52,593 nt of DNA from the NCBI GenBank assembly GCA_903879715.1, contig CAIRMR010000192.1, positions 1 through 52,593 on the forward strand, written 5' to 3'. The first letter of the stretch is position 1. Each line of letters starts with the position of its first letter. The notes beneath the pieces are model-generated. The model did no database searches, was not told the DNA's origin, and saw only the letters and a program-made list of their open reading frames with translations. The translations under genes were made by a program, and so were the position numbers. Source of the stretch: an uncultured Bacteroidales bacterium. GTDB taxonomy: Bacteria; Bacteroidota; Bacteroidia; Bacteroidales; UBA4417. This document shows, piece by piece, positions 13,421-48,870 of the stretch.

Positions 13421-13553
13421 GGTTTATTTTGATCTTAATTATAATTCTGTTTTAAATTGTAATTTCTAACATAAAGATGGGGCGAAGGGTGACAAGGCGA
13501 GGGGCGAGGCATGAAATTGTGTTTTCAGGTCGTGTATCCCGTATTTTTGGATT

Positions 13554-13614
13554 CTTCCGTCTTCCGTCTTCCGTCTTCCGTCTTCCGACTTCCGACTTCC
13601 GACTTCGGTCTTCC
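13554..13614. repeat. Heptanucleotide tandem repeat in the leu operon
   Basis: The 7-bp unit CTTCCGT is repeated four times, then drifts to CTTCCGA three times and CTTCGGT once, plus a partial unit: about 8.7 units in 61 bp. It lies between the synthase gene and leuB. A purine-rich GGGCGA/GACAAGGCGA stretch precedes it at about 13479-13509. Confidence 0.9.
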
Positions 13615-22073: not shown

Positions 22074-22208
22074 TATTGACCCCGACCTTCTGCCCGGGTC
22101 AATAAAAACAAGCCAAGACTTTTTTAATATTATTCCCCAAAAGTTCTCTATTTCTTTATATCCATTGCCCCGACCTTTAGATCCATTGCCCCGACCTTTA
22201 GGTCGGGG
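22074..22208. repeat. Three copies of an ATTG-CCCCGACCTT repeat with hairpins
   Basis: A 21-bp unit (ATCCATTGCCCC followed by GACCTTTAG) occurs in perfect tandem at 22160-22180 and 22181-22201. A diverged copy, ATTGACCCCGACCTTCTG, starts at 22075. The last copy closes a hairpin CCCCGACC-TTTA-GGTCGGGG (22189-22208). The first lies inside TATTGACCC/GGGTCAATA (22074-22082 and 22096-22104). It sits just past the 3' end of the SPFH gene. Confidence 0.8.
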
Positions 22209-47563: not shown

Positions 47564-48748
47564 TCAGAACAACTCCAATGGATTTATCAACAAAAATTCT
47601 TCCCATGGAATTCCGTCTTTGCCAACCAACATAATTTTTGAATCAGGATAGTGTTTCCTGAACTGAACCATGCCTGCAGTCCGAAGGCTATGCCCGCTTT
47701 TTACTTCCAGGGCCACGACACGGCCTTTATGTTCAAGCACAAAATCAACTTCATAATTACCTTCACGCCAGTAAAATAAGGAATACCCTTGCGAATATGC
47801 GTTATTTATCAGGTGTGCCCCAACTGCTGATTCCACAATCCGTCCCCATTTTTCCCTTTCTTTAACGATCATCTCAAAATCAAGCGGATGCAACGCGCTC
47901 ACAAAGGCGGTATTGTGAACCTGGAACTTCGGGCTTGATGATCGTTTGCGGACCGTATCGCGCGAAAATTTCTCTAATCCTCCAAGCATTCCGGCGGAAT
48001 CGAGCAAATCCAGATAATGTGATAATGTGGTTGTATTGCCGGCATCCAGCAACTGGCCTAAAATTTTATTAAACGAGAGCATCTGCCCCGAATAGGAACA
48101 TCCCAGGTCGAATAACCTCCGCATTAAAGCAGGTTTGTCTATACGCGACATCATCAGAATATCGCGCGAAATGCTTGTTTCAGCCAATGAATTGCTTACA
48201 TAATTCTTCCACCGCATCTCATCCGATATCAGTGACGCCGCACCCGGGAATCCTCCGTACCAGGCATATTGATCAGCATTCCAGCCAAAAGCTTCACGCA
48301 TTTCGGCAAGTGACCAGTGACTTATGTACATGGTTTCGTACCTCCCGGCGAGGGATTCAGTCATTCCTGTTTGCAGCAACAGCCGTGATGAGCCAAGCAG
48401 AATCACGTGAAGCGGAATGTTTTCGCGGCTATCGGAATCCCACAAGCGCTTTACAGTCTCGCTCCAGTTTGGGATTTTCTGTATTTCATCGATGATCAGA
48501 ACATACGAATCCGTTCCGGCAAGTTTCAATCTCTGCCTTGCGGTTTCCCATTGCATCTCTATCCAGGCAAGCCCGATGCCCGAAATATCATCGGCAGCTA
48601 CATAAAACCCCTGAATTCCAGGTTCTTTAAGTAATTGTAAGACTAACGTAGTTTTGCCCACCTGCCTCGGTCCGGCAAGCACTTGCATAAACCTCCGCTG
48701 CTCTTTGATCCTGCTTACAACTAACTGTAAATGCGATCGTTTGATCAT
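47564..48748 (-). CDS. DUF4143 AAA-type ATPase with PD-(D/E)XK-like C-terminus
   Basis: The 394 aa show Walker A GPRQVGKT (26-33), Walker B YVLIIDEIQK with D87 E88, and a sensor-like VILLGSSRLLLQTGM. The C-terminal DUF4143 region ends with EVDFVLEH (D335) and ALEVKSG (E348, K350), a D-x(n)-E-x-K pattern of PD-(D/E)XK folds. The family is widespread, often single-gene and horizontally mobile, with unclear function; links to defence or toxin-like roles have been suggested. No partner gene is adjacent. The start codon lies 10 bp from an array of 22-bp repeats that covers its probable promoter. Self-regulation through that array is likely. Confidence 0.9.
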   Translation of the reverse strand: MIKRSHLQLVVSRIKEQRRFMQVLAGPRQVGKTTLVLQLLKEPGIQGFYVAADDISGIGLAWIEMQWETARQRLKLAGTDSYVLIIDEIQKIPNWSETVKRLWDSDSRENIPLHVILLGSSRLLLQTGMTESLAGRYETMYISHWSLAEMREAFGWNADQYAWYGGFPGAASLISDEMRWKNYVSNSLAETSISRDILMMSRIDKPALMRRLFDLGCSYSGQMLSFNKILGQLLDAGNTTTLSHYLDLLDSAGMLGGLEKFSRDTVRKRSSSPKFQVHNTAFVSALHPLDFEMIVKEREKWGRIVESAVGAHLINNAYSQGYSLFYWREGNYEVDFVLEHKGRVVALEVKSGHSLRTAGMVQFRKHYPDSKIMLVGKDGIPWEEFLLINPLELF

Positions 48749-48758
48749 AATAATAATT

Positions 48759-48870
48759 TTTACTCAATGCATAATGCAAATTTACTCAATATACTGAGTA
48801 TTTATACTCAATATTTTATTTATTTTTACTCATTTAGTTGAGTATATTTACTCAATATATTGAGTAAATA
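48759..48870. repeat. Iteron-like array of five 22-bp units with TACTCA-N6-TGAGTA palindromes
   Basis: TACTCA starts at 48761, 48783, 48805, 48827 and 48849, an exact 22-bp period. In units 2, 4 and 5 it is completed to TACTCA-N6-TGAGTA (48783-48800, 48827-48844, 48849-48866). In units 1 and 3 the second half is degenerate. Four of five boxes are preceded by TT. A 22-bp step is about two helical turns, so bound proteins would sit on one face of the DNA. The rest of the 327-bp gap (48749-49075) is AT-rich and holds only the promoters described here. Confidence 0.9.
48777..48784 (-). promoter_or_regulatory. Probable -7 box of the DUF4143 ATPase gene, inside the array
   Basis: TAAATTTG on the minus strand (48784-48777) fits TAnnTTTG and spans the junction of units 1 and 2. 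It predicts a start near 48770 and a leader of about 20 nt. Units 3-5 lie upstream of it and unit 1 over the start site, a layout expected for repression. Confidence 0.5.

Follow-up and report, generated by a model that had tools for sequence, protein, structure and literature searches.

A conserved array of 22-bp-spaced palindromes upstream of a PDC-S01/DUF4143 ATPase gene is probably the operator of the ATPase itself

Contig CAIRMR010000192.1 of an uncultured Bacteroidales bacterium (GenBank assembly GCA_903879715.1), analysed over positions 1 to 52,593 of its forward strand (hereafter the window), carries an array of short repeats just upstream of a minus-strand gene (47564..48748) for a 394-residue ATPase of the AAA_14 plus DUF4143 type, and this array is probably the site through which the ATPase controls its own gene. 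The array (48761..48866, no strand assigned), delimited by sequence, repeat finding and conservation in homologues, comprises five TACTCA and three TGAGTA half-sites with a 22-bp period. The TACTCA half-sites start at 48761, 48783, 48805, 48827 and 48849 and are spaced by exactly 22 bp, each at the position given in an earlier note on this DNA, and the three full TACTCA-N6-TGAGTA palindromes described there are present without a mismatch (48783..48800, 48827..48844 and 48849..48866). The half-sites of units 1 and 3, at 48761 and 48805, are single and form no palindrome; the former (48761..48766) is the one nearest the gene, with 12 bases between it and the ATG at 48748. Not named in the note is the reverse pairing TGAGTA-N4-TACTCA, which occurs twice (48795..48810 and 48839..48854) and is the unit most widely common to homologues.

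At up to two mismatches TACTCA-N6-TGAGTA is found five times in the window, that is in the three copies of the array and at two other places with two mismatches each, a number reached by none of 100 dinucleotide shuffles, and Tandem Repeats Finder reports a period of 22 at 48781-48866 with a score of 100. A score for the best single inverted repeat, which is blind to repetition, is unremarkable for the array (19 of 200 shuffles were equally good), so that it is the periodic set which is unusual. The search for further genomic copies proposed in the earlier note was run, and the whole 6.07-Mb assembly holds five exact palindromes, the three of the array and only two singles, one of them upstream of an HtrA-like protease gene and one within a coding sequence. 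The former (L001:1501-1518, contig C65 of assembly G000), which lies about 45 bp upstream of the HtrA/DegP-like gene, may be a chance occurrence or a second target.

The predicted protein matches AAA_14 (5.9e-24) and DUF4143 (2.6e-27) in Pfam and is covered at full length, residues 1-392 of 394, by the PADLOC profile PDLC04791 for PDC-S01 (586.9 bits, 3.8e-177), proteins for which we take COG1373 to be a further label. A sequence search against solved structures gave no useful match for the ATPase. The AlphaFold2 model, computed from the window protein and 48 relatives, is confident (mean predicted local distance difference test score 89.1) and presents in order an AAA+ core, a helix at residues 226-232, a turn, a helix at residues 239-251, two wing-like strands and a PD-(D/E)XK-like core. 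Judged from this order of elements, the middle portion (47996..48073, minus strand) is in our reading a DNA-reading helix-turn-helix or winged helix, with 239-251 as the putative recognition helix and T239 and T240 (48029..48034, minus strand) as its first residues. Within the Walker A segment (residues 26-34; 48647..48673, minus strand) G26, G31 and K32 are invariant in 49 sequences, and in the predicted nuclease core, which extends from D335 to E348-x-K350 (47699..47746, minus strand) and is assigned from conservation and the strands of the model, D335 is invariant and E348 and K350 are found in at least 90% of the same 49 sequences. The Pfam matches, motifs and model strands of the window protein together point to an ATPase domain joined to a PD-(D/E)XK-type domain. 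This assignment follows our reading of the motifs and PMC12988326, in which PDC-S01 is described as a PD-(D/E)XK member with an ATPase plus PD-(D/E)XK architecture.

Conserved periodic palindromes, whose absence from homologues had been named beforehand as counting against a regulatory module, recur upstream of related genes in many phyla. Among the best 80 of 132 relatives from a first search, 77 loci have an exact half-site within 200 bp upstream, where the density is 1.17 half-sites per 100 bp as against 0.025 in the rest of the same loci (46-fold). The offsets between these half-sites cluster at those of the window, with 10 bp (< >) 31 times, 12 bp (> <) 36 times and 22 bp 41 times in the orientation < < and 14 times in > >; at up to two mismatches TGAGTA-N4-TACTCA is present in 67 and TACTCA-N6-TGAGTA in 47 of the 80 loci. 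According to record titles the phyla with boxes include Bacteroidota, Chlamydiota, Gemmatimonadota, Nitrospirota, Pseudomonadota, Verrucomicrobiota, Spirochaetota, Acidobacteriota and others, single assignments among which may be wrong because many records are metagenome bins. Residue 239, a T in nearly all the other loci, is A or V in each of the three that have no exact half-site (L047, L060 and L070). When 395 Bacteroidota genomes were searched at the protein level, 72 places in 58 genomes were recovered; this added 68 distinct genes with a usable start, of which 54 have an exact half-site within 160 bp. The geometry is also seen in a further phylum with a changed word, TACTAG-N6-CTAGTA-N4-TACTCA, directly before the annotated ATG of a homologue on the Thermus oshimai plasmid pTHEOS01 (L244:2435-2473), which is 49.6% identical and whose helix reads NTVT.

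Removal of duplicates and of weak or N-terminally incomplete matches reduced 175 profile matches to 148 distinct genes, 79 from the first search, 68 from the phylum protein search and one, L125, from the operator search only. A strict complementary pair of the form TGxy[T/C]A, at N4 or N6, accompanies 93 of these 148 genes, compared with 0.3 expected from mononucleotide shuffles. The region is AT-rich and short repeats abound there, as would be expected if the array were an incidental AT-rich repeat without function; this explanation is scarcely credible in view of the strict pairs, the fixed spacing and the conservation across phyla. For the covariation of operator and protein L125 was dropped, its gene being truncated and its helix misread. 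Base 4 of the half-site is G in all 84 genes with T239 and in three of the eight without (Fisher 1.1e-6), and base 3 is A in all 87 genes with T240 and in two of the five without (Fisher 8e-5); the values with L125 kept are 2.4e-6 and 1.5e-4. The 92 genes were also placed on a FastTree tree computed with the helix masked. Base 4 changes four times on it, each time on a branch where residue 239 changes as well, and base 3 three times, always together with a change of residue 240 to or from A or S; neither result was equalled in any of 2000 label permutations. The cleanest case lies outside the tree count, in the sisters L135 and L136, which are 88% identical and combine V240 with TGAGTA and A240 with TGCGTA half-sites respectively. 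A site that varies in step with the predicted DNA-reading helix of the ATPase makes it most likely that the ATPase shuts off its own gene. Of the two actors between which the earlier note had left self-regulation open, the ATPase itself and a co-moving factor, it is the former that gains from the conservation and from the covariation with residues 239 and 240, while the latter finds no neighbour shared by more than seven of 54 loci of the window's type (see below).

The converse approach, a DNA-only search for TTGAGTAANNTTACTCAA in the 395 Bacteroidota genomes without reference to any protein, returned 34 sites in 32 genomes, with none for the backwards control. At twenty-four of these sites a PDC-S01 gene, or a sizeable fragment of one, follows downstream at a distance of 14-56 bp. 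The L104 site is associated with a weak C-terminal ATPase fragment whose similarity is only slightly above null, and those of L108, L110, L114 and L132 with the apparent start of a decaying ATPase gene, clearly above null for L108 and L132 and slightly for L110 and L114; the site of L119 stands just behind an intact PDC-S01 gene with a separate array of its own. At L123 an array is present with no ATPase gene in sight, and L111, L120 and L127 are single sites inside coding sequences. In sum, an ATPase gene, whole, fragmentary or probably as a remnant, accompanies 30 of the 34 sites found from DNA, and for five of the 30 the assignment depends on short remnants. The occurrence of the array on many unrelated genes, which the earlier note had held to speak against its proposal, is not seen in these bacterial genomes, and is seen in part in phages, which carry the array without the ATPase. 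L102, L104, L108, L110, L113, L114 and L132, all from one genome family, have broken, fragmentary or nearly lost ATPase genes and an intact operator.

These distributions bear on the possibility that a separate, unlinked host transcription factor binds the array, with the ATPase gene as one member of its regulon. Bacterial operators mostly have dedicated binding factors, and the single palindrome upstream of the HtrA-like protease gene at C65 is what a small regulon might present. Such a factor is nonetheless unlikely: in the genomes searched few sites lie away from this gene family, across phyla the sequence has stayed next to the ATPase gene, and substitutions in the operator accompany those in the ATPase's own recognition helix.

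In many loci the sites moreover lie on promoter elements, as far as these can be read from consensus matches. The -7 box that the earlier note had placed within the array was found as TAAATTTG on the minus strand at 48784-48777 (feature 48777..48784), 28 bp from the ATG and fused to a half-site (TGAGTAAATTTG); the consensus by which it is named is the one we take to hold for Bacteroidota. Two promoter types are encountered in the family. A two-gene clade, so called for the large gene that lies 3′ of the ATPase gene and usually overlaps it by a few bases, contains 26 of the 80 loci (L061, L065, L066, L068, L069, L072-L080 and L082-L093), 16 of which match TTGA[GC][TA]-N16-18-TAnnnT; in 15 of them (not L065) the first box belongs to the operator, whose unit takes in the -35-like box together with the spacer. 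In 14 loci of this clade the end of the -10-like box is 6 bp from the ATG, a placement like that of near-leaderless transcripts. In the other 122 genes TAnnTTTG occurs within the last 110 bp in 37 (shuffles: mean 10, largest 17) and is fused to a half-site in 17, with 12 of these 17 fusions placed 27-28 bp ahead of the ATG. Across the 131 of 148 genes that have an exact half-site within 160 bp, the median distance between the end of the last half-site and the ATG is 18 bp. The operator is thus retained across groups with different promoter types, as would fit a repressor whose binding site accompanies it. A positive feedback, in which the ATPase would bind the array to activate its gene, is known for some restriction-modification control proteins, and the array in the window continues for about 80 bp beyond the -7 box on its upstream side, a region open to activators too. 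The unit over the -35-like box and spacer in 15 of the 26 two-gene-clade loci, the half-site fused to the -7 box in 17 of the 122 other genes and the closeness of the last half-site to the ATG favour repression over activation, for which the chances appear slim.

The genes near the array in the window encode a Gate-domain protein, an oxidoreductase and a beta-CASP metallo-hydrolase. The neighbour genes that recur most often among the 54 loci outside the two-gene clade are an MBL exonuclease, present at seven loci that are mostly close relatives of the window, and a second DUF4143-like ATPase, present at six. With no widely shared neighbour, the array of the window's type has the ATPase gene as its sole constant companion, and a co-moving regulator gene is rejected for this type, no neighbour being common to more than seven of the 54 loci. 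The adjacent toxin and antitoxin genes of a type II system were likewise not found, on the same count and with open reading frames below 80 amino acids left unclustered. In the two-gene clade the large downstream gene was recovered in 21 of the 26 loci by gene clustering and in 25 by tblastn (all except L079, with a short match only in L083). Its product resembles the NACHT antiphage protein EruA of NCBIfam, with full-length matches of 805-972 bits directly downstream of the ATPase gene in nine of the 13 genomes searched; the remainder include L077, where the adjacent copy is in two pieces, L072, where it is cut by the contig end, L083 with a fragment and L079 with none. None of the 13 genomes exceeds the NCBIfam cut-off of 1000 bits (best 971.9), and the partner is present at none of the 54 other loci within the stretch examined around each. 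The partner of the two-gene clade is a NACHT protein and not a classical regulator. In loci of this clade such as L082, L083 and L092 the operator is extended to a palindrome of 34-38 bp, whose outer arms differ between species and stay complementary; their pairing shows some excess over column composition at a few positions.

The conservation of the array, its geometry, its linkage to an ATPase gene that lacks a widely shared partner in the window's type, its overlap with promoter elements in many loci and the covariation of its bases with the recognition helix are all computed observations. Our preferred explanation, which is probably correct, is that the array is the self-operator of the PDC-S01/DUF4143 ATPase, which would repress its own gene through its own winged helix. 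Two features of an autorepressor are present, namely conserved palindromic sites by the gene's own promoter, with promoter elements known by consensus only, and a predicted DNA-binding domain with residues that covary with the site, L034, L037, L058, L175 and L050 being exceptions. We infer that the ATPase binds the array and that binding represses, and with it an oligomeric state and a releasing or inducing signal. The winged helix would bind TGAGTA half-sites as dimers on TGAGTA-N4-TACTCA and TACTCA-N6-TGAGTA units, which lie two helical turns apart, so that several dimers, or one AAA+ oligomer, could be aligned on one face of the DNA across the promoter. The bound dimers or oligomer would block RNA polymerase and keep the ATPase gene low until the protein leaves the DNA, for example through a change of its ATP state, on meeting a target or by titration.

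An oligomer on iterated DNA sites is also central to a different explanation, in which the array serves chiefly for loading, as the place at which the ATPase-nuclease would assemble, cut or be kept in the manner of ORC/Cdc6, control of transcription being secondary. The top Foldseek matches of the window model are ORC/Cdc6 subunits, including a Cdc6/Orc1 bound to origin DNA, the predicted PD-(D/E)XK core would suit such a role, and phages carry the site too. The matches have template modelling (TM) scores of only about 0.3 with root-mean-square deviations above 10, the array sits by promoters, and no replication gene or nuclease site turned up, although replicon features were not searched for; a loading site in this sense is improbable. 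For the self-operator the same matches, one on origin DNA and all with low TM-scores, make AAA+ oligomerization on iterated sites conceivable.

Several observations weigh against a self-operator read by the recognition helix. There is no strict complementary pair at 55 of the 148 genes and no exact half-site within 160 bp at 17 of them, while seven other DUF4143 genes in the same assembly lack the array altogether. One of the three base-3 changes on the tree is a reversion, the grouping of L055 in that tree is odd, and L135 and L136 differ at 47 positions, including E222G near the start of the helix and D250N within it. TGAG sites still predominate in L034, L037 and L058 despite A or V at residue 239, and TGAGTA is retained by L175 (V239) and, as a half-site, by L050 (A240), exceptions which indicate that the code is permissive. 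Of the 34 sites found from DNA, 25 come from 23 genomes of one family (f19) and are thus not independent. The fusion to a -7 box is missing in 105 of the 122 genes outside the two-gene clade, and promoter overlap is in any case consistent with repression without proving it. Finally, phages carry the array without the ATPase, no PDC-S01 or winged-helix profile matching in 126 array-bearing stretches, which are parts of contigs.

A single operator for all DUF4143 genes is rejected by the seven paralogues. Three of these, L009, L012 and L013, have other inverted repeats about 100 bp upstream, for which 0, 0 and 1 of 200 shuffles were as good, and these repeats are perhaps clade-specific operators; at L006, L007, L008 and L011 the upstream inverted repeats are not outstanding (14, 40, 54 and 33 of 200 shuffles as good). 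An example of a differing repeat is TTTGTCAATTACAATTGACAAA before the gene of L012. The upstream regions of four other relatives were compared and did not contain it, so that no family-wide rule is shown.

Self-repressing operators are familiar from type II toxin-antitoxin systems and from the C proteins of restriction-modification systems, in which, as in the array, repeated palindromes lie on the promoter, bound there by a product of the operon. The predicted repressor here differs in being a single AAA+ ATPase with a predicted nuclease domain, and there is no widely shared partner gene in the window's type. Plasmid iterons, which are bound by Rep proteins, are similar in that repeats of about 22 bp lie beside the gene of the presumed binder; the units of the array differ in being palindromic and close to a promoter, and no replicon features turned up, none having been searched for. 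The term iteron-like used in the earlier note suits the geometry and does not extend to replication, to which nothing observed pointed. The ORC/Cdc6 initiators, in which an AAA+ domain is followed by a winged helix that binds DNA, are similar in architecture to the window model and superpose poorly on it (TM about 0.3). The EruA/HyoA NACHT antiphage proteins (NCBIfam NF058535/NF058534) have a counterpart in the EruA-like gene that follows the ATPase gene in 25 of the 26 two-gene-clade loci, although all scores are below the cut-off and the 54 other loci have no such partner. RptR (PMC12255303) and the WYL regulators (PMC9122601) are described as dedicated, separate repressors of phage-defence islands; the likeness lies in a DNA-binding protein that controls defence genes, and the difference in that regulator and candidate effector here appear to be one protein.

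PDC-S01, a PADLOC single-gene candidate which the window protein resembles in its end-to-end profile match and its ATPase plus PD-(D/E)XK architecture, is reported among the commonest phage-defence candidates in PMC12988326 and PMC13356809, the former noting that validation is pending for most such candidates. PMC4406477 lists a Thermus gene with AAA 14, DUF4143 and helix-turn-helix motifs in a table on expression changes, and PMC10782964 lists COG1373 among horizontally shared genes. The literature searched, outside which most subscription papers and preprints fall, yielded no description of a PDC-S01 self-operator or DNA-reading code, and the passages cited here contain no operator. The predicted site, the predicted reading helix and the natural L135/L136 pair would provide a first concrete biochemical handle on the family, specifying what is bound, where and by which residues, with the prediction that a candidate defence effector is its own regulator, and they raise the question of why phages carry the same site.

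The phage sequences are IMG/VR stretches (L245-L358 and L209-L243), all parts of contigs. The 18-base site occurs in 36 viral stretches, none of them adjoining a PDC-S01 gene, and the three-half-site form with the right spacing in at least 120, compared with seven and nine for two wrong spacings, eight and five for two other control words and five, equal to background, for the variant TGAACA. Chance is accordingly rejected for one phage group (at least 120 stretches with the right geometry against 5-9 in controls), and copies beside phage-borne ATPases are not supported by the profile searches. Among the matches listed, the site is intergenic, i.e. outside open reading frames of at least 80 amino acids, in 121 of the 126 array-bearing stretches. 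The 126 stretches form 12 gene-sharing groups, two of which have the site inside reading frames and one of which holds 107 stretches (108 by another linking), so that the number of independent phage lineages is uncertain; in the large group the site lies between many different gene pairs. Exactly one TGAGTA-N4-TACTCA was found in each of 12 phage records tested, which may be fragments. As a guess, the phage copy is a decoy for the host ATPase or a means of hijacking it. The wider proposal, that DUF4143/PDC-S01 ATPases are self-addressed by a simple, clade-specific helix-to-base code and that the one non-coding copy in phages of at least one large group titrates or hijacks the host ATPase, is tentative and rather doubtful; if true, phages and a very widespread defence candidate would meet at this operator. 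Isolated phages gave no match for the phage region, and the idealized array one weak partial match in a Vibrio phage. In several phage records the same non-coding stretch has, as read by eye, other palindromes too, one of which was searched in the hosts and found in none of the 395 genomes.

Elsewhere in the window Tandem Repeats Finder reports nearly nine copies of a 7-bp repeat, TCTTCCG, at 13553-13614 (score 96), and 2.3 copies of the 21-bp repeat CTTTAGATCCATTGCCCCGAC at 22154-22201 with a 96% match.
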